NCBI GenBank assembly: GCA_012798435.1
Contig: JAAZNF010000098.1
Coordinates: forward strand, 1 to 43,792
Length of the DNA: 43,792 bases
Source of the DNA: Myxococcales bacterium
GTDB lineage: Bacteria; Myxococcota; B64-G9
Reading direction: 5' to 3'
In this document: one piece after another, positions 6,883-20,469 of the stretch
Position numbering within the stretch: position 1 is the stretch's first letter
How the letters are laid out: every line of letters begins with the position of its first letter
Made by a program: the position numbers and the translations under genes
The notes under the pieces: model-generated
Told to the model about the DNA's origin: nothing
Databases searched by the model: none
What the model saw: only the letters and a program-made list of their open reading frames with translations

Positions 6883-9102
6883 TCAGAACTCCTGCTTCCA
6901 CAGTAGCAGCAGCGTGCGGGGCGCCAGCGGGTAGTCGATCCCCGAAAATCCGGGATCGGGACCGGCGCTGCCGAGGAGGTTGCGTCCGATCAGCATCAGG
7001 GTCGTGGCCCGGTAGGGCAGAAGTTGGAGGCCGGTGAAGGTCAAGGCGCCGGAGAGCAGGGTGGTCGGGGCCAGCTCGTAGGGCGTGCCGGCGGCCAGGA
7101 TGTTGCTGTCGGAGGCGCGCCGGGAGGACCGGAACGAAGCCTCCACGGAGAGCCGCAGCGGAAGCTTGGGGAGGCGCCCCATGACTCCCAGGTTGACGGT
7201 CAGGGGGGGGTAGATGCCGTTGCGCCAGCCCACCAACTCGGCCGCATAGCCTTCTTCCCCCCGGTCGCGCACCACCCACACCAGGGTCAGGTTGAGGTAG
7301 GCCCGCAGCCAATCTTTCCAGTGGAGCTCGGCCTCGGCCTCCCAGGACAGCGCGCCCAGCTCGGAGATGTTGCGGGCCACCTTGTTGGCCCCCTGTTGGG
7401 TGAACTCGGCCTGGTCCATGACCAGGCTGTAGCCCACGTCGGTGGACAGGTGCAGGACCTCGGAGGGGGACCACAGCACCTGCCCCTCCAGGGTGTGCAC
7501 GTACTGTGGCTCGAGGTCGGGGTTGCCGATGATGTCGCCGGAGCGCAGCGGGACGCCGTACAGCAGCTGCGGCGAGGGTGCCTTGAAGGCCGAGGCGTAC
7601 ACCAGCTTCAGGTGCAGGTTTGAAAGCGCCTTGACCACCAGCGCCGCCCGGCCGCTGGGTTGGCCGCCGTAGATGTTGTGATGGTCGAAGCGAAAGCCGC
7701 CGGTGAGCCCGATGCGCCCGCCCTCGGACTGCCACAACGCCTGCAGGTAGGCGCCCGGATTGAAGAGCGCCTTGTGCCCCTGGCGCACCGAGGTGGACTC
7801 GCGGATGTCCCCGGCCTTCAGCCCCCCCACCGACAGCTGCAACACGTGCAGCATCGAGGGCAGCGCCTCGTCGTCGTAGAAAAGGTCGGTGCCGGCCATG
7901 AGCTGGAGGGAGGGGATCGGCTGGTAGCGGGCACCCAACGACACCTCGCATCCCGAGAAGCCAAACTCCCGCCGCACCCAGTAGGTGTCGGAGCCCACGT
8001 CGATCCGATCGGAGGGGCGCGGCCCGCCGGTGAAGTAGGTGGCGGAGGCGTTCAGCTCGAGCTGCTCGTTCAGGGCGAAGGTCGCGCCCAGATCCACGTA
8101 CCCCATGACCAGGGCGATCTGGTTCTTGCGGGAGTGGCCCTGGGCGTCGATGCCGTTCGCCAGTTGCTGCCAGTCGGCGAACTCGGCCACCCGTTCGATG
8201 GTGGACATGCCGGCGGCCAGCGTAAGCCGGCTTTTCTCGCCCAGGTGGTAGATGAGCTTCAAGAGCCCGGTGCCGGAGAACATCCGCTGGCCGCTGGAGG
8301 TGAGCGTGGCCTGGCTATAGTCCGGGATCTGCGGGGCAGGGGAGGAGCCCGGGAGCGAAAGGCCCGAGCGATCTTCGGAGTGGACGCGCGCCCCCAGCAG
8401 CACCTCCACCGCGCCCAGCCGGGTGCTCAGGCTGGCGTCCATGTCGCCGCCCAGGTTCTTGCCCGTCAAGCTGACCCCGGTGGTCAGATCGGCGCCGCGC
8501 TGATCCTTGCCGGCGCGGGTGATGACGTTGATCACCCCCAGGAAGGCGTCCGCGCCGTAGAGCGCCGAGGCGGGGCCGCGCACGATCTCGATGCTCTCGA
8601 CCGCCGTCAAGGGGATGAGCTCGGGCCCCAGCCACACGCCCGAGGTGGAGCGAAAGGCCACCGATCGGCCGTCGATCATCACCTTGAGGATGCCGCTCTC
8701 GGCCCGCAGGCCACCGATGATGCCTCGGACCGCGACGTTCGGCAGGACGTGGTCATCCTGGACGAAGAACCCGGCCAGGTGGGAGAGGACCTCGGCCACC
8801 GAACGGTAGCCCCAGCGCTCGATCTGCTCGCGGGTGACCACGGTGATGACCGCCGGCGCTTCCTCGACCTTCTGCATGGACTTGGTGGCGGTGGTCACCT
8901 CGACCTGTTCCTGGAGCATGTCCAGCTCGTCATCGAGCCCTTGGGTGTCGTCATCCTCCTCGGCGGGCGGCGCCTCGGGCGCCTCTCCCTCGCCGGGCGG
9001 GACCTCCGCAGAGGCTCCTTCGTCCTGCCCGAGCGCCGGGCCGGCGACGAGCAACACGGACAAGAAGACGAAGGACGACGCTGTTGGAAAGTTTCCCGGC
9101 AT
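6883..9102 (-). CDS. TonB-dependent outer-membrane receptor
   Basis: A 739-aa beta-barrel receptor. It has a signal peptide ending near GPALG, an acidic Pro/Glu-rich segment (residues 25-60), a plug domain with VITVVTREQIERWGYRSVAE and GPASALYGADAFLGVINVITR (split by normal family spacing), then a long barrel ending in phenylalanine (LLLLWKQEF). Receptors of this type import large or scarce ligands using TonB energy; the ligand is unknown. The start is uncertain: ATG 9102 is used, while an in-frame GTG at 9120 would add KIALN with a positive charge. Neither has a clear ribosome binding site. A longer open frame upstream is not real. It heads a unit with two solute-binding lipoproteins. Confidence 0.92.
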   Translation of the reverse strand: MPGNFPTASSFVFLSVLLVAGPALGQDEGASAEVPPGEGEAPEAPPAEEDDDTQGLDDELDMLQEQVEVTTATKSMQKVEEAPAVITVVTREQIERWGYRSVAEVLSHLAGFFVQDDHVLPNVAVRGIIGGLRAESGILKVMIDGRSVAFRSTSGVWLGPELIPLTAVESIEIVRGPASALYGADAFLGVINVITRAGKDQRGADLTTGVSLTGKNLGGDMDASLSTRLGAVEVLLGARVHSEDRSGLSLPGSSPAPQIPDYSQATLTSSGQRMFSGTGLLKLIYHLGEKSRLTLAAGMSTIERVAEFADWQQLANGIDAQGHSRKNQIALVMGYVDLGATFALNEQLELNASATYFTGGPRPSDRIDVGSDTYWVRREFGFSGCEVSLGARYQPIPSLQLMAGTDLFYDDEALPSMLHVLQLSVGGLKAGDIRESTSVRQGHKALFNPGAYLQALWQSEGGRIGLTGGFRFDHHNIYGGQPSGRAALVVKALSNLHLKLVYASAFKAPSPQLLYGVPLRSGDIIGNPDLEPQYVHTLEGQVLWSPSEVLHLSTDVGYSLVMDQAEFTQQGANKVARNISELGALSWEAEAELHWKDWLRAYLNLTLVWVVRDRGEEGYAAELVGWRNGIYPPLTVNLGVMGRLPKLPLRLSVEASFRSSRRASDSNILAAGTPYELAPTTLLSGALTFTGLQLLPYRATTLMLIGRNLLGSAGPDPGFSGIDYPLAPRTLLLLWKQEF

Positions 9103-9134
9103 GTTCAGTGCGATCTTCACGATAGAATTGGGGA

Positions 9135-9164
9135 TTTCTACTCGAACTCGAGACGTCGGGTCAA
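9135..9164 (-). promoter_or_regulatory. Putative sigma-70 promoter for the TonB receptor unit
   Basis: Minus strand: TTGACC (9159-9164, 5 of 6), 18-base spacer, TAGAAA (9135-9140, 4 of 6). The start point would be near 9128, 8 bases before the alternative GTG start and 26 before the ATG. Confidence 0.5.
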
Positions 9165-9239
9165 GAAATGAACCAGGTCTCGTGATGGCGCGGCAAATTC
9201 GACAGCAGCGCCCTGCGGAAGCGATTTCTTTGAGAGCGG

Positions 9240-10673
9240 CTACCCCGCCTGGGGTCCGGTGAGCGGCTGCGGTGGCGATAACGGCGCATCGCTGCGGGCC
9301 TGCTTGAGCAGGGCCCGGTTCTCGCGCCGCCAGCGGCGCACCTGGTTGGCGGCGTAGGCCCGGATGACCGCCCGCTGGAGTTTCCCGCGCAGCAGCAGGC
9401 CCAGGGTGCGCCGCCAGGCATACACCTCGGCCATCCCGTCCATGGTCTCTTGCATCAGCGTGGATGCGGACATATTGCACGGGCGGAACACCGCGTGGTG
9501 CGCGTCGTAGAGCGACCAGTCGCGCGAGAGCAGGCGCCCGTCGCGCTCCATGTCTTCGAAGACCGGGGTCCCCGGGAACGGGGTGAGCACCAGAAACTGC
9601 ACCGTCTCGATGTCTTCTTGGACGACGAAGCGCGCGGTGGCGCGGATGTTCTGGACGGTGTCGCTGTCGCTGCCGGTGATGAACATGCCGTGCACCCGGA
9701 TGCCGTGCCGGTGGAAGGCGCGCACCGCCTCGCGGATGTCGTCCTGGTTCTGGCGCTTGCGGAAGAGCTTCAGCGACTCCTCCTGGATGGACTCGAAACC
9801 CACGTACACCACCCGGCACCCGGCCCGGGCCATGAGCGCCAGCATCTCCTCGTCCTGGGCTGCGCGCACCGAGACCTGGGCCGACCACTCGGGAAAGAAG
9901 ACGTTGCGCCGCAGCAGGTAGTCGAGCAGTTCCTTGGTGCGGTGGGGCGAGGCGCAGAAGTTGTCGTCGTAGATGAACATGGCGTCGCCGCAGCCGCGCC
10001 GGCGCTCGAGCTCCTCCGCCACCCGCTCGGGGGAGGCGTAGCGCATGCGGTGGCCGAACATGGGCGTGACCGAGCAGAAGCGGCAGTGGTGCGGGCAGCC
10101 GCGCGAGGTCTGGATGGGGATGACCCCGCGGTGGAACCAGCCCTTCATGCCGGCCACCAGCGAGAAGTCGGCGATGGGAACGCGATCCATGTCCGCCATG
10201 CGCGTGGGCAGGGGGTTGTGGCACGTCTCCTCGCCGGCGTGGAAGCTCAGGCCGGGAACCTCCGAAGCGGTCTTCTCGCCGGCCAGCATGGCCAAGAACT
10301 CGGCGAAGCTCTCCTCGGCTTCACCGCGCAGGACGAAGTTCGCGTGCGAGAGCGCCTCATCGGGCATGAAGGTCGCGTGCGGCCCGCCCATGATCACGGT
10401 GGCGCCACGCTGGCGCGCCTGGTCGGCGAAATGGTAGGCGGCCGGCGCGGTGGAGGTGATGGTGGAGATGCACACGACGTCGGCCCAGGAAAGGTCGTCT
10501 TTTGCAAGCGGCCGCTGTTCTTCGAAGACGATGCGGACGGTGTGTCCGAGTCCCTTGGCGATGGTGCCGAGGATGGGCAGACCCAACCGCGGGATGGCGT
10601 ATCTCGAGAAGATGTGTTTCCCTGGAGACTTGGGCTCGATCATCAGGATACTGTATTTTACTCGATTATTCAC
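9240..10673 (-). CDS. B12-binding-domain radical SAM enzyme (BchE/class B-like)
   Basis: A 477-aa enzyme. Residues 1-140 form a cobalamin-binding Rossmann-like domain (ISTITSTAPAAYHFADQ, MGGPHATFMPDEAL, LRGEAEESFAEFL). The radical SAM core starts with the cluster motif C193-x3-C197-x2-C200 in TSRGCPHHCRFC, and contains FIYDDNFCAS and VGFESIQEESLK. Related enzymes methylate or rearrange unactivated carbons in tetrapyrroles, lipids or antibiotics; the substrate here is unknown. The C-terminal 90 residues are basic and helical. The start is a GTG at 10673 with a strong GGGAGG upstream. A TetR gene lies just upstream, and the two promoters share the same operator-like sequence. Confidence 0.9.
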   Translation of the reverse strand: MNNRVKYSILMIEPKSPGKHIFSRYAIPRLGLPILGTIAKGLGHTVRIVFEEQRPLAKDDLSWADVVCISTITSTAPAAYHFADQARQRGATVIMGGPHATFMPDEALSHANFVLRGEAEESFAEFLAMLAGEKTASEVPGLSFHAGEETCHNPLPTRMADMDRVPIADFSLVAGMKGWFHRGVIPIQTSRGCPHHCRFCSVTPMFGHRMRYASPERVAEELERRRGCGDAMFIYDDNFCASPHRTKELLDYLLRRNVFFPEWSAQVSVRAAQDEEMLALMARAGCRVVYVGFESIQEESLKLFRKRQNQDDIREAVRAFHRHGIRVHGMFITGSDSDTVQNIRATARFVVQEDIETVQFLVLTPFPGTPVFEDMERDGRLLSRDWSLYDAHHAVFRPCNMSASTLMQETMDGMAEVYAWRRTLGLLLRGKLQRAVIRAYAANQVRRWRRENRALLKQARSDAPLSPPQPLTGPQAG

Positions 10674-10686
10674 GGTACCTCCCTGA

Positions 10687-10713
10687 CCAACCAGTTAGTT
10701 AATGAGCAGACAA
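10687..10713 (-). promoter_or_regulatory. Promoter/operator of the B12 radical SAM gene (second copy of the TetR site)
   Basis: Plus-strand CCAACCAGTTAGTTAA (10687-10702) matches the perfect palindrome upstream of the TetR gene in 12 of 16 bases, and both are followed by TGAG. On the minus strand TTGTCT (10708-10713) takes the place of a -35 box at the same distance from the site as in the TetR promoter. Over 33 aligned positions the two regions agree at 23. It lies in the 49-base gap between the TetR stop and the radical SAM start. Confidence 0.6.
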
Positions 10714-10722
10714 AAAAAACAC

Positions 10723-11508
10723 CTACGGTCTCTTGCAGCCGAGGCCGGCGAATATCAGGTCGAGGATGGACTCGCATCGCTCTCTCAAGATCTTTTCCGA
10801 GAGGGGATCCTCGCCGAACATCATCCCCACGAACTCCCGGTCCGAAAAATATCCGATGGTCATGGCGTAGATCGAGACCAGGAACTGGCGCGCGTTGACC
10901 TTCTGGAACACCCCGGTCGACACGCCCCGCTCGATGAACTTGACCCCTCGGTCGAACAGCGGCGCGAAGAACGTCTCCACCAGGCGCGCCAGGTAGCGAT
11001 CCGAGGAGCCCACGTCCATGGTGGTGAGCCGCGAGAAGTTGCGGTGGGAGGAGATGTAGTCGAAGAAGCCGCGAAAGAACGACTCGAGCTGGCGCGCCAC
11101 CGGGAGTTCATCGCGCAGCGTCTCCTGGGTGAGCTTGATGAGGTCGAAGAGGATCTTGTCCAGCACGGCGTGGAAGAGCTTCTCCTTGCTGTCGAAGTAG
11201 TAGTGGATCATGGCCTTGTTCACCGCGGCCAGATCGGCTATCTCGCGCGTGCGGGCGCCGCCGAAACCCTTGCGGGCGAAAACCGACTCGGCAACATAAA
11301 CGATGCGCTCCTTGGCGTCGCGGATCTGCTGGAGCTTGCGCACGAAGTCCGTGCCGTAGTCGATGGCCGCCTGCTCCATGAGCTCTCGGCGGCGTCGGTC
11401 CTTCTTCGAGACCTCGGCGGTGTCCCTGGGCTCTTCCTGCTCTTCGGTGCGCCAGTCGTCGTCGCTGGAATCGAGAAGGTGCAGGGTGCTGTTTTTTTCT
11501 TCTTCCAT
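10723..11508 (-). CDS. TetR-family transcriptional regulator (controls the adjacent radical SAM gene)
   Basis: A 261-aa repressor-type protein. The first 60 residues are an unusual charged, acidic extension (EEEKN, DSSDDD, TEEQEEPRD). The TetR helix-turn-helix follows at about 68-115: IVYVAESVFARKGFGG, then TREIADLAAVNKAMIHYYF, the typical recognition helix and YYF motif. The remaining all-helical domain binds an unknown ligand. The ATG at 11508 is chosen because the palindromic operator and promoter lie just upstream; a longer open frame would place these inside the coding region. It is upstream of the B12 radical SAM gene on the same strand and very probably regulates itself and that gene. 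Confidence 0.9.
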   Translation of the reverse strand: MEEEKNSTLHLLDSSDDDWRTEEQEEPRDTAEVSKKDRRRRELMEQAAIDYGTDFVRKLQQIRDAKERIVYVAESVFARKGFGGARTREIADLAAVNKAMIHYYFDSKEKLFHAVLDKILFDLIKLTQETLRDELPVARQLESFFRGFFDYISSHRNFSRLTTMDVGSSDRYLARLVETFFAPLFDRGVKFIERGVSTGVFQKVNARQFLVSIYAMTIGYFSDREFVGMMFGEDPLSEKILRERCESILDLIFAGLGCKRP

Positions 11509-11517
11509 GTCGACCCC

Positions 11518-11546
11518 AGTTAACCAGATGGTTAATGAGTTGTCAA
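11518..11546 (-). promoter_or_regulatory. Autoregulated TetR promoter with perfect palindromic operator
   Basis: Minus strand: TTGACA (11541-11546, 6 of 6), 17-base spacer, TTAACT (11518-11523). The perfect palindrome TTAACCAGATGGTTAA (11520-11535) fills the downstream part of the spacer and overlaps the -10 box, as expected for a TetR repressor site. A related copy precedes the radical SAM gene. Confidence 0.75.
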
Positions 11547-11570
11547 GGACAATGTCGAAACAGGCGAACC

Positions 11571-12518
11571 TCAGCGACCTCTCCCGGGCCGTTGGATCTG
11601 GGCGGAAATGCCCGAGATGTCCTCGTCCAGCTCGACGATCATCCCCTGCGGTAACACTCGGCACCCGGAGCACTCGGAGGCCCGGAACTCGACCCGGTAG
11701 CGGCCGCCGGGGAGCTTGTCGAAGACGAACCTGCCGTCCTCGCCGCTCGCCGCCTCTCGCTCGGCGGGCCCGGACACCCGGACAAGAGTCTTCTCCCCCT
11801 TCTTCTGGCCTTTCACCTGGCCACTCAGACGGTAGACCGGGCGTTCCACGAGCGGCTTGCCGGATTCATCGACCGGGGCCTCGAGCGGGACGGCCGAACC
11901 CTCGCTGGGCTCGGCCAGAAAACGCATCCCCAGGATGGGCTCGCGCTCGATCTCGAGCTCCATCTCGACCGGGACGAAGCGGTAGCGATCGTCGCGGGGG
12001 ATCAGGCGGCAGGCGCCGGGCTCGCGGGGTTGGAGGCTGAAGGCGCCGCCTTTCGCGGACTTCCCTTCGACCGGGATGCGGCAGGCGAGTTCGAGCAGCA
12101 CCACCTGGCCCTTCTGGAGACCCTCCACCCGTCCCTTCACCGCCCCCGGGTTTCCCGCGGCGCGTCGCGAGATGGCGTGGAAGTTGACCGCCTGGACTCT
12201 CGGCTCGCGCACCACGACCGTCCTCGAGGAGGGGGAGAACTGGTAGTTGGCGTGCTCCGGGCGCACCAGGTATTTTCCGGCGGAAAGCCCGCAGGCCTCC
12301 CACTGGCCTCCGGGCTGGCTCTGGACCCGTAGGCTGACCCCGCCCTCGATGTTCAAAAAGGCCGCGTCCTGGCCGGAAAGTCCGGTCACCCAGCCCCGCA
12401 CGCAGGCGGCCTCGGCCCACGGGGCGGCGAGCAGTATCCCGATGATGAGCGCCGCGCCAAGGTGCGTATGGCTTGCCGCCTGCCGGCGCCGTCGGCCCGG
12501 ATCCCGGAGGTTTTCCAT
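11571..12518 (-). CDS. Secreted protein with carboxypeptidase-regulatory-like (Ig-fold) domains
   Basis: A 315-aa protein with a basic N-terminus (PGRRRRQ) and signal peptide ending around PWAEAAC. The mature protein has repeated beta-sandwich signatures: GGQWEACGLSAGKYLVRPEH and, near the C-terminus, GEDGRFVFDKLPGGRYRVEF, the second being a classic carboxypeptidase-regulatory-like motif. A RVEGLQKGQVVLLELACRI region may be a middle copy. Such domains usually serve in adhesion or cell-surface structure rather than catalysis. The ATG at 12518 has AAGG 8 bases upstream. It is divergent from the nuo-like cluster; a TTGACA on the minus strand (12548-12553) may be its -35 box, but no good -10 was seen. 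Confidence 0.75.
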   Translation of the reverse strand: MENLRDPGRRRRQAASHTHLGAALIIGILLAAPWAEAACVRGWVTGLSGQDAAFLNIEGGVSLRVQSQPGGQWEACGLSAGKYLVRPEHANYQFSPSSRTVVVREPRVQAVNFHAISRRAAGNPGAVKGRVEGLQKGQVVLLELACRIPVEGKSAKGGAFSLQPREPGACRLIPRDDRYRFVPVEMELEIEREPILGMRFLAEPSEGSAVPLEAPVDESGKPLVERPVYRLSGQVKGQKKGEKTLVRVSGPAEREAASGEDGRFVFDKLPGGRYRVEFRASECSGCRVLPQGMIVELDEDISGISAQIQRPGRGR

Positions 12519-12571
12519 GGCCTGACCTTGCCGGTGGCCGGACGATTTGTCAACCCGAAAGCCGCTTCGCC

Positions 12572-12600
12572 TTGACAGCCGTGCCGGCTTCCCATACACG
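12572..12600 (+). promoter_or_regulatory. Putative promoter of the nuoJKLMN-like cluster
   Basis: TTGACA (12572-12577, 6 of 6), 17-base spacer, TACACG (12595-12600, weak). Transcription from about 12607 would leave a short leader that includes the GGAGG (12612-12616) of the first gene. Confidence 0.45.
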
Positions 12601-12620
12601 ATGGTCCGCACGGAGGCGGG

Positions 12621-13097
12621 ATGGACGTCATCCTGTTCTGGATCCTGGGTGTGATCACCTTGGGCGCGGCCGGGTTCGCCATGCTGCATCCCCGGCCGGC
12701 CCCCGCCGCGACCGCCTTGTCGCTCACCATGGCGGGCAACGGCGGCATCTGCCTTCTGCTGGGCCAGTACCTCTTGGGAATGGAGGTCCTGCTGGTGCTG
12801 GCCGCCGGGGCGCTCTTCTTGCGCGCCTTCATGCGCGGCCGGGAGATCCTCCACATCCACACCGGGGGCAAGGCCCGCTGGAGCCTGGCGCGCGTCTCGG
12901 GCGTGGCCGCGGCGGCGGTCTTCTTGTGGCTTCTCCTCCCCCTCCTCTCCGACGTGGAGCGCCCGCGGCTGGCCGAGGGTGCGGAGGCCATCTCCACCAC
13001 GGCCTGGCTGGCGCTGCTTTCGCTGCTGACCGTGGCCATCACCGGCGGGTTCGTGGTCCGCGCGCGCCGCGCCCAGAACGGAGGCTCGGGCTCGTGA
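12621..13097 (+). CDS. nuoJ: NuoJ-like (complex I chain 6) membrane subunit
   Basis: A 158-aa protein with five hydrophobic segments. The first three align well with E. coli NuoJ (comparison from memory): FWILGVITLGAAGFAMLHPR, then a GQYLLGMEVLLVLAAGALFL segment matching the NuoJ TM3 region. In complex I this subunit couples the quinone site to the antiporter chain through a pi-bulge helix and a conserved tyrosine (Tyr59 in E. coli); here that position is leucine, while the nearby glutamate (E55) is kept. A GGAGG lies 4 bases before the ATG. The stop overlaps the GTG start of the nuoK-like gene. No NuoA-I subunits are in the window. Confidence 0.8.
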   Translation: MDVILFWILGVITLGAAGFAMLHPRPAPAATALSLTMAGNGGICLLLGQYLLGMEVLLVLAAGALFLRAFMRGREILHIHTGGKARWSLARVSGVAAAAVFLWLLLPLLSDVERPRLAEGAEAISTTAWLALLSLLTVAITGGFVVRARRAQNGGSGS

Positions 13098-13396
13098 TCC
13101 CTCTCGAACACGTGCTGTGGCTGGCCATGCTCCAGGTCAGCCTCGGGCTGGCCGGCCTGCTGCTGCGGCGCTCGGGGCCGGTGGTCGTGCTGGCGGGGAT
13201 CTTGATGTTGAACGGCGTGCTCCTGGCCGTCGCCGGGCTGGCGGCCAACCGGGAGGGCGCGCCGCTCCAGGCGCCGGGCGTCGTCATCCTGGCGCACATG
13301 GTACTGCTGGTGCTCTCGGGCGCCGCGGTGGCGTACGCCTTCGAGCGATTTCGCCGCCCCCTCAACGTGGACGAGCACGACAGGATGAAACATTGA
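13094..13396 (+). CDS. nuoK: NuoK-like membrane subunit lacking both key glutamates
   Basis: A 100-aa protein, the same length as E. coli NuoK, with three TM helices. It starts IPLEHVLWLAML and ends PLNVDEHDRMKH, matching the NuoK ends IPLQH and NLNID...M. An ungapped alignment with E. coli NuoK (recalled) puts isoleucine at position 36 and leucine at 72, where NuoK has the proton-path glutamates E36 and E72. N40, G76, R85, L90, N91, D93 and M98 are kept, so the homology is sound but the proton path is not. The GTG start overlaps the nuoJ stop (GTGA), and the stop overlaps the TTG start of nuoL. Confidence 0.8.
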   Translation: MIPLEHVLWLAMLQVSLGLAGLLLRRSGPVVVLAGILMLNGVLLAVAGLAANREGAPLQAPGVVILAHMVLLVLSGAAVAYAFERFRRPLNVDEHDRMKH

Positions 13397-15078
13397 CGCT
13401 GTCTTCCCTGGCAAACGCCGCCGTGCTCCTCACCTGGGCGGCGCCCGTGGCGGCCTCGCTGCTGCTCTCTCTCCTGGGAGGCCGGATCCCGCGCCGGGGG
13501 CTCACCCTCCTCTCGCTTTCTGGTAGCGCCCTCCCCCTGTTGTGCGGCGGGTTCCTGCTGGGCCTGCGCTGGTTGGATCCGGGCTCGGCGCCCCCGGCTC
13601 CGGATGGGACCGCCCTGTGGGCGCTGCTGCTTTCGAGTTTTTTGGCCCTGGGCGCCCTGTGGCAGGCGCAGCGCTCGGTGGCCGCTTTCAGCGGGCGGCA
13701 CCGCTTCTACGCGCTGATGATGCTCCTGCTGGCCGCGGCCGGCTTCCTGTTCACGCGAGCGGCCCTGGACCTGGCCTTTCTGGTAGGCTGGGAGGGGCTG
13801 TCGCTGTCGGGCGGGTTCCTGGCCGGCTTCTGGGCTATCGAGGAGCGGGGAGGGCGGACCGGGGTGCACTGGTTGCTACTGGGCCGCGTCTCCGGGCTTT
13901 TGCTTCTGCTTTCGCTGCTCACCGCCGCGGGCCCTCACCCCGAGTGGTCCACCTCGTTGCTCCTGGCCGCGGCGCTGGTTCGCGCCGGCGTGGTGCCGTT
14001 CCACGGCACCGTGCCCGAGCTGGGACGAAGCCGGTCCACCGCCGCGCTCCTGGTTCAGACCCTGGCCTCGTGGGTGCCCGCGGTGTTCTTGCTGGACCGG
14101 GTGCAGGATTCGTTGGAGCGCTTCCCCGTCTTGCTCGACTGGCTGCTGTGGCTTTCGCTGGCCAGCGTGGCGTTCTCCCTGGTCGCCGCCATGCAACCGC
14201 AGGCGCCACAAAAGATCGTCGGCTGGCTGACCATGAGCGCGGGCAGCCTGGCCCTGCTGGGGTTCGCCGCGGGCGACCCGGTGGCGGCCCTGACGTTGTG
14301 CGCCGGCGGCGCGCTGCTCCTGGCCGGGCGCTTCTTGCTGAACGGCCGGCCGGAAGCGGAGACGGGGCCGGATGAGATCGCGGCCGGGCCGATCTTCCGC
14401 CTGCGCGCCGTGTCGCTGGCCTCCGCGGTCGTCGCGATGGCGCCTCCGGCGCTGTGGTTCGCGGGCTGCGCGCGGCTGCTCGCGGCCGCGGCGGGGGATG
14501 AGCGGGGAGCGTGGATCACCGCGGCCGTCTTCGCCGTCCAGTTCGGCATGGGCGCCGCGCTGCGCCGTCTCCACGAAGCGCTGCCCGCCGAGGAAGGGGC
14601 GCGCTGCTGGCCCTGGCCGGCCCTGCTGTTCTCTGTGGGCCACCTGATCGTCGGCGCGGCTGGCATCCTGCTGTTCGGTGAGGCGTTCTGGGGCGGGGCG
14701 ACGGGGATCCGCCTGGGGCTCGGCGCCGTGCTGGCGGCCGGGGCCGGCTGGCTGCTGGCCGGTTCTTTCGCGCGGCTCAAGGTCGCGCCCCGCTTCATCG
14801 GCGCGCGGCGCCTCATGGAGCTCCTGGCCGACACGGGTCTCGGGCTGGGCCGGCTGGTGATCCTGCTCCCGGTGGGGCTGGCCAAGGCCCTGGGAGTGGT
14901 GCTGTGGCGGCTCCTGGGCGACATCTTGATCGACGGCCTGGGGACCGGGTTGCCGGTGCGCACCGTCGAGGGCACGGGGCTGGTCCTGCGACACCTGCAC
15001 GACGGGCGGATCCGGCGCACCTTGCTCATCGCCGCCTGGACTGCGCTGGCCCTGCTGTGGGCCTGGACGCGGAGCTGA
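13393..15078 (+). CDS. nuoL: NuoL-like antiporter-type subunit, proton-relay residues changed
   Basis: A 561-aa, highly hydrophobic protein (E. coli NuoL is about 610). The TM5 motif LVGWEGLSLSGGFLAGFW keeps the conserved glutamate. The TM7-8 segment reads AALVRAGVVPFHG and ALLVQTLAS, where active NuoL has lysine in GKSAQ and histidine in ALIHA; here these are Arg and Gln. The TM12 lysine is also absent (APPALWFAGCARLL). A C-terminal amphipathic stretch with LRHLHDGRIRRTLL matches the NuoL tail. The TTG start at 13393 overlaps the nuoK stop and is favoured by that coupling; no ATG lies nearby. It may form part of a non-pumping membrane arm. Confidence 0.78.
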   Translation: MTLSSLANAAVLLTWAAPVAASLLLSLLGGRIPRRGLTLLSLSGSALPLLCGGFLLGLRWLDPGSAPPAPDGTALWALLLSSFLALGALWQAQRSVAAFSGRHRFYALMMLLLAAAGFLFTRAALDLAFLVGWEGLSLSGGFLAGFWAIEERGGRTGVHWLLLGRVSGLLLLLSLLTAAGPHPEWSTSLLLAAALVRAGVVPFHGTVPELGRSRSTAALLVQTLASWVPAVFLLDRVQDSLERFPVLLDWLLWLSLASVAFSLVAAMQPQAPQKIVGWLTMSAGSLALLGFAAGDPVAALTLCAGGALLLAGRFLLNGRPEAETGPDEIAAGPIFRLRAVSLASAVVAMAPPALWFAGCARLLAAAAGDERGAWITAAVFAVQFGMGAALRRLHEALPAEEGARCWPWPALLFSVGHLIVGAAGILLFGEAFWGGATGIRLGLGAVLAAGAGWLLAGSFARLKVAPRFIGARRLMELLADTGLGLGRLVILLPVGLAKALGVVLWRLLGDILIDGLGTGLPVRTVEGTGLVLRHLHDGRIRRTLLIAAWTALALLWAWTRS

Positions 15079-15080
15079 AC

Positions 15081-16559
15081 ATGGACGGCTCGCTCGCGCG
15101 GATCCTGCTGGTCTGCCTGCCGTCGTTGCCGGCGCTCGGCGCGCTGGCGGTGGGAGTGTGCCCGCCGCGCGCCACCCGGCTGGCCCGGTCCCTGGGCTGG
15201 GCCTTCTCGCTGGGGGCGCTGGGCGCGTGGATCGGCCTGTGGTGGCTTTCGAAGAATGGCTCGCTGCCGGTGTCGCTCGAGTTCCCCTGGGTGCCCGAGC
15301 TGGGGATCGGTTTCCACCTCGGGTTGGACGCGGTCGGGTTCTGGTTCAGCGGCCTCATCGTGATGGTGGGTGGCGCGGCCATGATCGGGACGCTGCCGGG
15401 ACTCCCGGATCTCAACCGTTCTCACCTGGTGTGCCTGCTCCTCGCCGAGTGCGGCATGCTGGGCGCGGTGGCCTCCTGGGACCTCATCCTGTTCATCGCC
15501 TTCTGGGAGGTCACCCTGGTGCCCTTCTTCTTGTTGATGGGGCGCGGGCCGGAGCTGCGGGGCGTGGCGGCGGCCACCCGGTTTTTCGTGACCTCCATCG
15601 CTTCCAGCGTGGTGCTGTGGGTCGGGGTCCTGCTGCTGGTACGCGCCGCCGGCGAGCCGCGCACCTTCGATCTCGGAGAGCTTTCGCGACGATTCGAAGC
15701 GGCACCCGCCGGAGGCCTGGCCTGGTTTTTCGTGCCGGCGTTCGTCATGCGCCTGGCGGTCTTCCCACTGCACACCTGGTTCCCCGTGGCCCAGTCGGAT
15801 AGCCCCGTGGCGGCCTCGGTCATGTTGGCCGGTGGGGTGCTGCCGCTGGGTGGCTTCGGCGTGTACCACCTGCTGCATCGTATCTTCGGCGCACAACTGG
15901 GTGGCACGGCCCATGCGCTCGCCTGGTTGGGGCTCGGGACGACGCTGCTGGGAGGGCTGGTGGCCCTGGTGCAGCGCGATCTCAAACGTCTGCTGGCCTG
16001 CCTGTGCCTCGGACAGACGGGGCTGGCGCTGCTGGGGCTGTCGCTCGGAAGCCCGGCGGCGGTGTGGGGAGGTCTCGTGCTGCTGGCCTCGGCCGGTCTC
16101 TCCGGCGCGGCGGCATTCCTGTTCGCGGGGGTGGTTTGCCAGGCCCGCGACAGCCAGCGAGTCGTCGACATCAGCGGCTTGTGGCGGCGGCAGCCGCTGT
16201 TCTCGGGCCTGTTCTTGCCCGCGGTGGCTTCCCTGGGGGCGTTGCCGGGCACGGTGGGTTTCTCGGGGGCCTGGCCCGTCCTGCGCGAGTTGCAGGGCGA
16301 AGGGCTGATGCTCGTGCTCGCCGCGTTCGCGCTGCTCGTGCTGGGCGGGGCGGGGTTGTGGACCAGCCGGCGCTTGAGCGGAGGGGTGTTCCAGGCGGAC
16401 CTGTGGAATAGCTCCCGTTGGCCGCGGCGGCGGCAGGTGGTGGTGCTGCTGCTGCTCGCCGGTGTCATCCTGGCCGTGGGCTTGTGGACGGCGCTGGACC
16501 AGGCGGCGCCGGACCCGGCCGCGGCGGCCGCGTCCATGGGTCTGGGGAGGTCCCCGTGA
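15081..16559 (+). CDS. nuoM: NuoM-like antiporter-type subunit, proton-relay residues changed
   Basis: A 492-aa protein with about 14 TM helices, normal length for NuoM. FIAFWEVTLVPFFLLMGRG matches the NuoM TM5 glutamate motif. The TM7-8 region FVMRLAVFPLHTWFPVAQSD, then SVMLAGGVLPLGGFGVY, is clearly NuoM, but the two central lysines are replaced (Arg in FVMRLA, Leu in VLPLG). The segment VALVQRDLKRLLACLCLGQTG carries Gln where His is usual, and the TM12 glutamate is Ala in GFSGAWPVL. The ATG at 15081 is 2 bases after the nuoL stop. The stop overlaps the nuoN GTG start. Confidence 0.82.
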   Translation: MDGSLARILLVCLPSLPALGALAVGVCPPRATRLARSLGWAFSLGALGAWIGLWWLSKNGSLPVSLEFPWVPELGIGFHLGLDAVGFWFSGLIVMVGGAAMIGTLPGLPDLNRSHLVCLLLAECGMLGAVASWDLILFIAFWEVTLVPFFLLMGRGPELRGVAAATRFFVTSIASSVVLWVGVLLLVRAAGEPRTFDLGELSRRFEAAPAGGLAWFFVPAFVMRLAVFPLHTWFPVAQSDSPVAASVMLAGGVLPLGGFGVYHLLHRIFGAQLGGTAHALAWLGLGTTLLGGLVALVQRDLKRLLACLCLGQTGLALLGLSLGSPAAVWGGLVLLASAGLSGAAAFLFAGVVCQARDSQRVVDISGLWRRQPLFSGLFLPAVASLGALPGTVGFSGAWPVLRELQGEGLMLVLAAFALLVLGGAGLWTSRRLSGGVFQADLWNSSRWPRRRQVVVLLLLAGVILAVGLWTALDQAAPDPAAAAASMGLGRSP

Positions 16560-18025
16560 GCCCGATCCTGAGCCTGCCGCCGGCCACCATGGCCCTGTTC
16601 TGGTTGCCGACCCTGGCGTGTGCTGTCGTGGAGGTCGCGCTCCCGGCCCAGAGAGCGTTGCGCGCTCTGCTCTCGCTGGCCGGGCCCGTGGCCGTCCTCG
16701 GGGTCGTGGGGTTCCTGTGGCCCGAGGTGGCGGGGCAGAGCCCTCCCCTGGCCACCTTCCTCGGAGACGGTTTTGGCCGTTTCGCGCTGGGGACCATCTG
16801 GGTGCTGGCGTTCTTCGCGATCGCTCTGCGGCGAGGCGAGGAACCACGGTCCGCCGACGGCGGGGACACGTTGCTGCTCTTGTCGGCCGCGGGCGGGTCG
16901 CTGCTCGTCCTCTCCGCGGACCTGTTCGCCACCCTCTCCGGCTTCGCCCTGACCCTGGTCCCGGTGTGGGGGCTGGCTTCCGTCTCCGGCAGGATCGAAG
17001 GACGCGAGGCGGCGCTCAAAGGGCTTTTGGCCGGCGTCCTGTCCCTGGTGCTCTTCGCCCTGGGCTCGGCCTTGATCCTTGCCGCCACGGGGCACTCCAC
17101 CCTGGCCGGGATCGGTGGCTTTTTGCGCGATCTTCCTCCCGGTGAGGCCCTACCGCCCTTGCTGGCGCCGGGGGTGGCGCTGCTGTTGGGTGGCCTGGGC
17201 TTGTTCGTGGCCGCGGTACCGCTGCACATGTGGTTTTCAGACCTGGCGGAGGGGTTGCCGGCCTCGGCCTCGCTGTGGCTCACGGGCGGGGTGCTGGTGG
17301 CCGGGCTGGCGGTCTCGGCGCGGATCTTGCTCACGGCGCTCCTGCCGCTCGCGCAACACCCCCAGATCGGTTGGGTGGAGCTACTGCGGGGCGTCGGCCT
17401 GGTGGCCCTGCTGGTCGCCAACGCGGTGGCCCTGGTGCAGTCCCGCCTGCAGCGAATGGCGGGCTACCTGGCGGCCGGGCAGACCGGGTTCTTGCTGCTC
17501 GGGATCGCCGCCGCGGGAGAGGTGCGCGGCGAGGGCGAGCACATCGTGGGTGGCATCCTGGTCTTCTTGCTGGTCCATGCCCTCACCTGGGCGGGCCTCT
17601 ACGCGGGGTTCTCCCGGCTCACGGGTCCCGAGCCACCGCGGGTGAGCCACCTGGAAGGCCTGGCGCGGCAATGTCCCTGGCTGGCGGCGGTCATGGGCCT
17701 GGCGCTGTTGTGTCTCTCGGGAATGCCGCTCACGGCCGGCTTCTTCTCCCGGCTCGTCTTGCTCGAGGCCATGGTGAGCGCGGGCTGGACGGGGACGGCC
17801 GTGCTGGCGGCCCTGTCCCTGGGCCTGGTGCTGGTCATGAGCCTGGGGCTGGTGGCGGCCATGGTCATGCGGCCGCCGACTTCGGCATCGCCGCGCCCGA
17901 CGGGTGTCTGGCCCGCGCTGGCCGCCGCCGTCACCGCCGTGGCCATCCTGGCGATCGGGTTCTTGCCTGGCGGAGTCCTGCGCGTCGCGCTGCAGGCCGC
18001 CCGGAGCCTGGCTCTGGGGTTCTGA
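16556..18025 (+). CDS. nuoN: NuoN-like antiporter-type subunit, proton-relay residues changed
   Basis: A 489-aa polytopic membrane protein, usual length for NuoN. AAVPLHMWFSDLAEGLPASA corresponds to the NuoN TM7-8 AVPFHMW..D..EGAP motif, but the conserved lysine before it is replaced by a hydrophobic residue. The TM5 glutamate is Ala (LSGFALTLVPVWGLAS). The late motif SGMPLTAGFFSRL has Arg for the conserved Lys. The GTG at 16556 overlaps the nuoM stop. It is the last gene of the module and converges with the PilZ gene, leaving a 10-base gap without a visible terminator. Confidence 0.78.
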   Translation: MSPILSLPPATMALFWLPTLACAVVEVALPAQRALRALLSLAGPVAVLGVVGFLWPEVAGQSPPLATFLGDGFGRFALGTIWVLAFFAIALRRGEEPRSADGGDTLLLLSAAGGSLLVLSADLFATLSGFALTLVPVWGLASVSGRIEGREAALKGLLAGVLSLVLFALGSALILAATGHSTLAGIGGFLRDLPPGEALPPLLAPGVALLLGGLGLFVAAVPLHMWFSDLAEGLPASASLWLTGGVLVAGLAVSARILLTALLPLAQHPQIGWVELLRGVGLVALLVANAVALVQSRLQRMAGYLAAGQTGFLLLGIAAAGEVRGEGEHIVGGILVFLLVHALTWAGLYAGFSRLTGPEPPRVSHLEGLARQCPWLAAVMGLALLCLSGMPLTAGFFSRLVLLEAMVSAGWTGTAVLAALSLGLVLVMSLGLVAAMVMRPPTSASPRPTGVWPALAAAVTAVAILAIGFLPGGVLRVALQAARSLALGF

Positions 18026-18035
18026 TTCTGGTGGC

Positions 18036-18419
18036 CTATTCCGATCGCCGCGGCAAGGGCGGGGGTCCGACGGGGGCCGGTGCACCATAATGAGTGGAGA
18101 CGAAGCGGCGGATGGCTTCATGGGCGGCGGCGTCCATACGGACGAAGCGGACGCCCATCCAGTCCGAGGACACGCCCCCAGAGCTCCGTTGATGATAACT
18201 CACCTCGGCGGAGGCGCTGATGGCGGGCTGGTTCTCCGACAGAGAAAACTCCACCTCCACCGCGCTGCCGACCGGGGGCAGCTTGGGCAGGTAGATACCC
18301 ATGCCCCCCTCGCTGAGATCCCGCCCCACCCCGTTGAACCGGCCGCGGATGGTGTCCACCTTGACGCGGAAGGCCACCGGTATTCGCAGAGTGCGCCGTT
18401 TCTCGCTTCCCAGGCTCAT
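18036..18419 (-). CDS. PilZ-domain (c-di-GMP-binding) protein
   Basis: A 127-aa single-domain protein. It has both halves of the c-di-GMP-binding signature: KRRTLRIP (the RxxxR half, residues 7-14) and DLSEGGMGIYLP (the DxSxxG half, near residue 39). A second beta part ends WMGVRFVRMD, followed by a helix with HEAIRRFV and a proline-rich tail. It would act as a c-di-GMP effector in the cytoplasm, target unknown. The ATG (18419) overlaps the selB stop in an ATGA, with GAGGAG upstream inside selB, so it is translated with selB. No functional link between Sec insertion and c-di-GMP is established. Confidence 0.88.
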   Translation of the reverse strand: MSLGSEKRRTLRIPVAFRVKVDTIRGRFNGVGRDLSEGGMGIYLPKLPPVGSAVEVEFSLSENQPAISASAEVSYHQRSSGGVSSDWMGVRFVRMDAAAHEAIRRFVSTHYGAPAPVGPPPLPRRSE

Positions 18420-20374
18420 GATTCTTCTCCTCGTCCCGCGCCGGCCGTCCGCGGCACCCGTCGGTCGCCGACTCGCAGGGTCACCTTTTCCCGATCGAAG
18501 TACTCCGCCAGCGGAATGGCGAACTTCCGGCTGGTTCCGACCAGCCCCTTCCACTCCTGCGTGGTGATGGCGCCCCGCTGTTCGAGGTGTTGCCGCAGGC
18601 GCGCGCGCAGGTCCTCGATGGCCGGCGCCGAGAAGAACAGCTCGGCCGATACCCGGATCAACCGCCGGGAACGGACCAGGTGCGAGAGCAGCTCGGTCAC
18701 TTCCTTCACGCCGCAGGACAGGCGCTGCGCCGCCTCCTCCGGCCGCGGTGGGGCCAGACCGGCCTGGTCGAAGAGCGCGGCCAGCTCCTCGCTCTGACTC
18801 GCCCGCTGGCCCGAGAGCCGTACCCGGTGCGTCGAGAGTCGCACCGCGTCCGCCTCGGCCGCCAGCGCGCCGCGGCGGCAGAAGTCGTCGAGCAGCGCGC
18901 GGAAGACGCGGGGCGAAAGCTCGGGTTGGAGCCGCTGGCGTAGCGCCTCGGTCGGCATGCCGGGAAGCAGCGGGTTCTCCTGGTGGAAACGCTCCAGGGT
19001 GCGGTGCGCCCGCTCCAGCGCCTGCGCGCGCGCGCCCGCCCCGATGGCCCGTTGGCGCTCCGGATCGGTCCACAGCAGCCCGCCCTCGCCGGCGATCTGC
19101 TCCAGCGCGGCCTGGATCTCGGAGGGCCCCGCGCCGGTCTCCAGGGCGAGTTCGGCGGCGCTGGCCCCGGCCAACTCCCGCCCGTCGAGCAGGATCGAGA
19201 CCCGCTCGGCCAGGGTGCCGCGGTCGAGCCGGCGCAGGCGCTCCAGCCGGACCTGGGCCTCGCGCGTTCGCCGCCGGGGTGGATGGGGGTCCAGCACGCG
19301 TCCCCCGCCGATGGTGGTCCCCCGGCCCGGGATCGGGGCGAACCCCCGCAGGATGAAACGCTGGCCGGCGAAGAGAGCCAGCGGCTCCTGGGCGTGGATG
19401 CGGGCGAAGGCGGCTTCGCCCGGCGAGAGGCGCTCGGCACCCCACAGGCGCACCCGGACCTCGCTCTTGGCGGTACCCGCGTAGAGGATGGCCGAGAAGC
19501 GCGCCGGGCGCGCCTCGGCGCCGGCGACCAGTTCGAGGCGCGATTCGAAGTCGCGGCTGGGCTGGAAGCCGGGTTGGCAGATCACCTGACCTCGCGAGAG
19601 CTCTTCCTGGGCGACGCCGGACAGGTTGACGGCGACACGCTGTCCGGCAAAGGCCTCGGGCTGCTCGCGACCGTGGCTCTGCAGGGCGCGGATCTTCACC
19701 TTGCGCAGCTTCCCGCCGGGATCGGGAACGATGTCCACCATGCCGTCCGAGCGCAGCTGGCCCGTCAGCAGGGTGCCGGTGACCACCGTGCCGAAACCCT
19801 GCGCCGAGAAGATGCGATCGATGGGCAAGAAGGGCGGGGCCGAAAAATTCCGCGGGGGGACGTCGCGGCCCGCTTCCAGCAGGAGCCGCTTGAGCTCGGC
19901 GAGCCCCTGGCCGGTGCGGCTGGAGACTCGCACCTTCGGGCTGGCCTCGAGGAACGTGCCGGCCAGCTCGCGTCCCAGGTCGGCGAGCACCTCTTCCTGC
20001 CAGGCCGGATCGGGGGTCAGGTCGATCTTGGTGAGCGCCACCACGCCGCGGCGGATGCCCAACAGGTGGCAGATGTCCACGTGCTCGCGCGTCTGGGGCA
20101 TGACCCCCTCGTCCGCCGCTACCACCAGCAGGCACAGATCGATGCCGCCCGTTCCAGCCACCATGTTCTTGACGAAGCGCTCGTGGCCCGGGACGTCGAC
20201 GATGGCCGCGTGCAGATCGGGCGCGAGTGCAAGTTCGGCGAAGCCCAGGTCGATGGTGATGCCGCGCTTTTTCTCCTCCGGCAAGCGATCCGGATCCACC
20301 CCCGTCAGCGCGCGAACCAGGGCCGACTTCCCGTGATCGATGTGGCCGGCCGTGCCGATGACGATCGAGCGCAT
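18416..20374 (-). CDS. selB: Selenocysteine-specific elongation factor SelB
   Basis: A 652-aa GTPase that delivers selenocysteyl-tRNA to UGA codons followed by a SECIS hairpin. The EF-Tu-like G domain shows GHIDHGKS (G1), KKRGITIDLGFA (switch region), DVPGHERFVKNM (G3) and TKID (G4). Beta-barrel domains 2-3 follow (FSAQGFGTVVTGTLL is a SelB/EF-Tu domain-2 motif), then the family's C-terminal winged helices, ending in EWKGLVGTSRKFAIPLAEYF and RVGDRR, the final wing that reads the SECIS. The ATG at 20374 has GGGAGG 3 bases before it; an in-frame upstream ATG at 20410 would add 12 residues. selA, selC and selD are not in the window. Confidence 0.96.
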   Translation of the reverse strand: MRSIVIGTAGHIDHGKSALVRALTGVDPDRLPEEKKRGITIDLGFAELALAPDLHAAIVDVPGHERFVKNMVAGTGGIDLCLLVVAADEGVMPQTREHVDICHLLGIRRGVVALTKIDLTPDPAWQEEVLADLGRELAGTFLEASPKVRVSSRTGQGLAELKRLLLEAGRDVPPRNFSAPPFLPIDRIFSAQGFGTVVTGTLLTGQLRSDGMVDIVPDPGGKLRKVKIRALQSHGREQPEAFAGQRVAVNLSGVAQEELSRGQVICQPGFQPSRDFESRLELVAGAEARPARFSAILYAGTAKSEVRVRLWGAERLSPGEAAFARIHAQEPLALFAGQRFILRGFAPIPGRGTTIGGGRVLDPHPPRRRTREAQVRLERLRRLDRGTLAERVSILLDGRELAGASAAELALETGAGPSEIQAALEQIAGEGGLLWTDPERQRAIGAGARAQALERAHRTLERFHQENPLLPGMPTEALRQRLQPELSPRVFRALLDDFCRRGALAAEADAVRLSTHRVRLSGQRASQSEELAALFDQAGLAPPRPEEAAQRLSCGVKEVTELLSHLVRSRRLIRVSAELFFSAPAIEDLRARLRQHLEQRGAITTQEWKGLVGTSRKFAIPLAEYFDREKVTLRVGDRRVPRTAGAGRGEES

Positions 20375-20469
20375 ATCCTCCCGATAGCAGAGAGGGTGCC
20401 CGGTGATCAAGAGCCGAGAGCATCGATCGCCAAAATGCCTAACCGGCGAAAAAAACAGGCGATATTTTC

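Follow-up and report, generated by a model that had tools for sequence, protein, structure and literature searches.

A predicted TetR-regulated operon with a twin operator before a B12-binding radical-SAM gene in Myxococcota

Introduction

The operator of the E. coli regulator RutR reads TTGACCA-NN-TGGTCAA. RutR is described as binding a palindrome of about 16 bp and as repressing its own gene (PMC10891134). For FadRSa of Sulfolobus acidocaldarius, the operator sequence is reported to decide whether one dimer binds or two (PMC6449355); QacR is described as bound to two overlapping inverted repeats, with both QacR and CprB acting as two dimers (PMC4150764). At the trpRBA intergenic operator of Chlamydia, bound YtgR is reported to halt read-through from the upstream promoter (PMC6504234), and at eukaryotic Pol I terminators, which combine Reb1 or Nsi1 with a T-rich element, pausing in the T-rich stretch is placed about 15 bp before the protein (PMC12366685). 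In one account of such obstacles, LacI is a proven roadblock and many DNA-binding proteins are not (PMC10310618).

Here we describe a tetR gene and a B12-binding radical-SAM gene (rSAM) that, together with two predicted operators, very probably constitute a genuine operon under its own repressor, an arrangement of a known type. The locus is ordinary in kind and well conserved. A search of open-licence full texts, which is weak evidence of absence, found no publication joining TetR with radical SAM/B12 operators, plsC or hopanoids; the uncharacterised B12-radical-SAM enzyme gains a candidate regulator and two defined predicted operators.

Results

The window, the whole 43,792-nucleotide stretch of Myxococcales bacterium DNA analysed here, carries tetR (10723–11508, 261 aa, ATG start) and, in tandem on the same minus strand after an intergenic gap of 49 bases, rSAM (9240–10673, 477 aa, GTG start). 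The rSAM ribosome-binding site, read from the sequence as AGGGAGG (10678–10684, minus strand), has G-rich equivalents at three related loci (L032, L033 and L034). As the two genes lie in tandem on one strand, the tetR promoter may serve them both. No Rfam match was found in 9000–12700 of the window. Farther along are tandem membrane-protein frames (12621–18025, plus strand), presumably like complex I or antiporter subunits, and a long frame (18416–20410, minus strand) whose start we take to resemble SelB, the selenocysteine elongation factor, both assignments coming from the frame lists.

The TetR protein belongs to the TetR family by its domains, scoring 48.3 bits against TetR_N (cut-off 24) and 53.1 against TetR_C_29 (cut-off 26.2) in Pfam. 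Profile and fold place it near RutR and the fatty-acid regulators, but it falls below every equivalog cut-off: 59.3 bits for RutR (cut-off 368) and 46.2, 44.2 and 41.5 bits for FadR of Bacillus, PsrA and FasR (cut-offs 200, 300 and 330). Its structure model, of middling quality (pLDDT 71.7) and with low TM-scores against its matches, supports the fold only. In Pfam the rSAM protein scores 78.8 bits for the Radical_SAM domain and 53.9 bits for B12-binding and, with CxxxCxxC invariant in 10 of 10 homologues, belongs to the B12-binding radical SAM superfamily. Its scores against the HpnR, HpnJ and BchE equivalogs (135.7, 139.6 and 143.9 bits) lie below the cut-offs of 650, 577.6 and 481.35; by profile it is nearest BchE, HpnJ and HpnR, and by fold, from a good model (83.7), AprD4, TsrM and MgmA. 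An rSAM paralogue of one relative (G001:C23) has an in-frame TGA near its C-terminus, for which selenocysteine was considered and set aside: homology seems to continue in another frame, and a frameshift or true stop is likelier.

Searches covered 195 genomes of the phylum, the window's own included: a TetR homologue (E 1e-25 or better) is present in 6 of them and an rSAM homologue (E 1e-100 or better) in 8. The two genes stand side by side in the window and in G001, G006 and G008 (loci L032, L033 and L034, respectively), family members from three other genera whose records are titled Myxococcota or Deltaproteobacteria. Identity over the alignments is 63–66% (TetR) and 58–60% (rSAM). TetR members of the family share an N-terminal extension (GTDFV) that was not seen in the relatives from G020 and G091. 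Downstream of rSAM in G006 come an oxidoreductase gene and lpxB.

Within the tetR promoter is site A (TTAACCATCTGGTTAA, TTAACC-N4-GGTTAA; 11520–11535, minus strand), a predicted operator supported by conservation and by the matrix described below. Upstream of it on the minus strand is the −35 hexamer TTGACA (11541–11546), present in all four orthologues and always 11 bases before the left arm, and overlapping it, at a spacing of 17 bp, is the −10-like TTAACT (11518–11523), which is off consensus. The four loci share the consensus TTGACA-N5-(T/C)TAACC-N4-GGTT. Described in the initial annotation as a perfect palindrome, site A is perfect in its 6-base arms and non-palindromic at the central two bases (7 of 8 pairs). 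A strict promoter scan called no promoter in 10600–11650, site A included. The tetR start codon follows the −10-like hexamer by 6–9 bases in the four orthologues (9 in the window), so the message may be nearly leaderless (window 11506–11523).

Site B (TTAACTAACTGGTTGGTC; 10685–10702, minus strand), a second predicted operator composed of two overlapping A-type sites, lies in the gap before rSAM. On the minus strand this gap reads TTGTCT (10713–10708), 17 bp and TTGGTC (10690–10685), containing TTAACTAACTGGTTGG (10702–10687). The agreement of 23 in 33 aligned bases reported in the initial annotation is exact and was reached by none of 3,000 dinucleotide shuffles of the gap (mean 15.6, maximum 21). 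Allowing up to 3 mismatches, TTAACC-N4-GGTTAA matches the window 5 times, A and B being two of these, against 1.7 expected, and at least 5 occurred in 2 of 100 shuffles, so B is not striking by this loose pattern alone. Among the four B sites the window's is also the least symmetric, with 5 of 8 pairs, a count reached by 871 of 2,000 shuffles. A matrix built solely from relatives, using five A sites (three in tetR promoters and two at plsC, the window excluded), ranks A first in the window at 28.6 and B second at 16.8, with the next position at 9.7. Scores of at least 16 occur at 2 of 160,825 positions in 18 other loci, a background that is not neutral, some of these loci having been chosen because they match the pattern.

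Comparison of orthologous loci, where loss of the sites had been named as grounds for rejection, found both at the same places in all three relatives with the gene pair, the A-to-B distance from centre to centre being about 814–893 bp in the four loci as computed from coordinates. Within 150 bp upstream of the rSAM match, the best matrix score is 13.4–16.6 at the four loci with tetR, and no such site occurs within that distance in the seven rSAM homologues lacking an adjacent tetR in the sequence covered (best −3.8 to 7.5). A chance resemblance between A and B, to which the count of loose matches lends some colour, is hardly credible, and is refuted for the pair as a whole by its retention in three other genera. 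The earlier proposal that one regulator controls both genes through two related sites is thereby supported, although its detail of a duplicated promoter and operator is not supported as stated by the analyses that follow. As a separate observation, three of the four closest rSAM homologues without tetR (L084, L085 and L090) carry a CATGAC-N5-CATGACA direct repeat with an 11-bp period, 78–90 bp before the rSAM match, which we take to resemble a Pho box on the other strand. In L095 (G002), the next gene encodes a histidine kinase and precedes a response-regulator-like frame.

Scanning the matrix across B in shifts from −6 to +6 revealed its internal arrangement. In all seven B elements the peaks lie at −2 and +2 from the element's own centre, with values below −4 at −1, 0 and +1; centred on its own dyad, B is unlike A (−24 to −36). 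Indeed, AACCAACCGGTTGGTT contains AACC-N4-GGTT twice, 4 bp apart. In relatives B is a 16–18-bp palindrome, AACCAAC(T/C)(A/G)GTTGGT(T/C), of which the window's AACTAACTGGTTGGTC is the most degenerate form; its register 1 (10687–10702, minus strand) scores 16.3 and its register 2 (10683–10698, minus strand) a weak 7.4. The alignment of A with B in the initial annotation corresponds to the left register. B is thus no simple duplicate of the operator but two A-type sites overlapping with a 4-bp shift (7 of 7 B elements).

Because both registers of B are A-like, a single TetR recognition half-site explains A and B, and a second regulator is unneeded. That a different TetR-family protein reads B while this one reads A, leaving rSAM under two regulators, is improbable: the dissimilarity of B to A about its own dyad and the many TetR paralogues in these genomes would suit such an arrangement, but the A-like peaks at −2 and +2 occur in every B element, and every exact B site that does not fall inside a long reading frame comes from a genome with this TetR or its 47% identical relative.

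The distribution of these exact sites extends beyond the operon. The exact B core, ACCAACNNGTTGGT, occurs at 8 sites in 11 genomes: 4 in tetR–rSAM gaps (G001, G006, G008 and G091), 1 before a plsC homologue of G001 and 3 inside long reading frames. The G091 core lies between the gene for the 47% identical TetR and a different B12-radical-SAM gene, starting at the tetR stop codon; this B lacks the T-run described below, and there is an A-type site close to the rSAM start, both of which count against our model. The G091 locus (L099, 8531–10979) is in its own right an independent pairing of this TetR with a DUF4070-type B12-radical-SAM gene, with B and A-type sites between them. Also counting against the model is G020, in which a 50% identical TetR has A-type sites and no rSAM gene beside it. 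Around 9500 at this G020 locus (L079), two perfect TGACC(A)-type palindromes lie upstream of the tetR gene, and a large downstream frame is, judged from the frames only, presumably a BadF-like ATPase or dehydratase-like protein.

We then consider how B might act. The idea that the promoter as well as the operator is duplicated finds no support at the −35 position, which is TTGACA in all four orthologues at A but TTGTCT, TTGCCC, TTGGGT or TTGGGA at B. In the window this −35-like TTGTCT, noted in the initial annotation, spans 10708–10713 (minus strand), and TTG alone is conserved. The −10 position of B reads TTGGT(C/T) in all four, without A at position 2. The rSAM ribosome-binding site lies 0–9 bases beyond it, and a transcript starting 6–7 bases past the −10 would lose this site in three of the four operons, making a weak case for a promoter at B; read-through from the tetR promoter explains the conflict simply. 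We regard as rather unlikely the reading, in line with the initial annotation, that rSAM has a weak promoter of its own, TTGTCT-17-TTGGTC, with B as its operator and TetR over its spacer and −10. The position of TTG, 11, 12, 11 and 11 bases before the left arm of B, much as at A, speaks for that promoter, being what duplication of a promoter-operator would produce; against it stand the −35 conserved only in TTG, the −10 hexamers, the truncated ribosome-binding site and the absence of any promoter call.

Preceding B on the coding strand is a run of eight T (10712–10719, minus strand) that ends 9 bases before it and recurs in the four orthologues: runs of 8, 8, 9 and 6 end 9, 10, 9 and 9 bases before the B arm. 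None of the three B elements outside these operons has a T-run, the longest there being 1–3 bases. Apart from it, 18 kb of G001 contains no run of at least 6 A or T, though the less GC-rich G006 has many (16 in 18 kb). In the window (−9.2 kcal/mol) and in G001 (−10.6) a weak hairpin adjoins the T-run, as would be expected were this run the tail of an ordinary intrinsic tetR terminator unconnected to B. This we judge quite improbable, as no hairpin abuts the T-run in G006 or G008, no terminator was called there in the window, and the spacing to B is fixed at 9–10 bp. We infer instead that a polymerase stopped by protein on B would hold its RNA–DNA hybrid about over the T-run, making a T-run of fixed spacing a possible release element for the stalled polymerase. 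B as an internal operator that stops read-through fits both the T-run and the ribosome-binding site better than a promoter does.

Candidate further targets of the regulator were sought by pattern. Exact TTAACC-N4-GGTTAA has a single occurrence in the 5.05-Mb genome of the window, so that the regulon search proposed with this pattern returned site A and nothing else, and the relaxed 14-mer is not enriched there (8 one-mismatch matches versus 10 for the reversed pattern). In the 7.1-Mb genome of G001, the strict pattern TNAACCN4GGTTNA has 4 matches against 0 for the reversed-pattern control: 1 in the tetR promoter, 2 before plsC and 1 elsewhere. This pattern does not recover the G006 and G008 tetR sites, which depart from it at an outer base. 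The 2 plsC sites of G001 lie 21 bp apart, before a plsC gene other than that with the B core, and the G006 relative of this gene has one B-like and one A-like site upstream. An acyltransferase domain was confirmed in the G006 protein and in that of G001:C29; the protein of G001:C27 shares 70% identity with this G006 acyltransferase. Sites were found at 3 of the 18 acyltransferase places examined (24 were listed), in two relatives; the 3 PlsC homologues of the window's genome have none, nor do the 2 examined in G008. These plsC-type genes suggest a membrane-lipid link for the regulator in two relatives only, the window's genome being without such sites, and give a first hint of a membrane-lipid context for the rSAM enzyme. 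The one other promising palindrome in the window's genome (C82, between an outer-membrane barrel gene and an adenosine deaminase gene) was rejected as a regulon member: its score of 11.0 does not rise above background, and nothing comparable was found where relatives encode homologues of the barrel.

Discussion

The tetR and rSAM genes probably form one operon, with predicted TetR binding both at A, giving autorepression, and at the twin operator B. What the sequences show is the anatomy of the locus, its conservation, the twin registers and the absence of B from rSAM homologues without an adjacent tetR; binding and repression are inferred. A TetR dimer would bind A, filling the spacer and overlapping the −10 of its own promoter, and so block initiation. 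The same protein would bind B between the two genes, where the stretch could accommodate a single dimer, in either register, or two dimers at once. B would then be a second gate at which bound TetR stops the read-through polymerase at the T-run, with rSAM consequently repressed more tightly than tetR, and an effector would release both sites. The chances of this gating role for B are about even, and we rank it above a separate weak promoter there. As to the effector, an acyl-CoA or related lipid signal is a tentative candidate, on the doubtful side.

More speculatively, the gap might be a repressor-dependent terminator, a bacterial analogue of the eukaryotic Reb1 layout, in which a polymerase stalled over the T-run releases its transcript through the weak U–A hybrid without a proper hairpin, although we think this unlikely. 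With the same reserve, the first product of the operon would set the extent of its own transcript, and the twin operator would present a firmer roadblock than A. Were the T-run and B to act together, the operon would offer a compact example, in bacteria, of a bound repressor terminating transcription.

RutR is among the top solved-structure matches of the TetR protein by both fold and sequence, and its operator resembles site A and the G020 sites; in contrast to RutR, no pyrimidine genes were recognised near the window's tetR. With HpnR, HpnJ and BchE, the rSAM protein shares domain order and alignment over most of its length. Set beside FadRSa, QacR and CprB, site A would fit the one-dimer mode and B the two-dimer mode, with a shift here of 4 bp between registers defined from sequence alone. 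YtgR differs in not being encoded by the first gene of its operon, whereas here the first gene encodes the presumed repressor. The layout at B, with a T-run covering 9–18 bp before the site, parallels that of the Reb1 terminators, although polymerase and protein are different and the hairpin needed there is inconsistent here.
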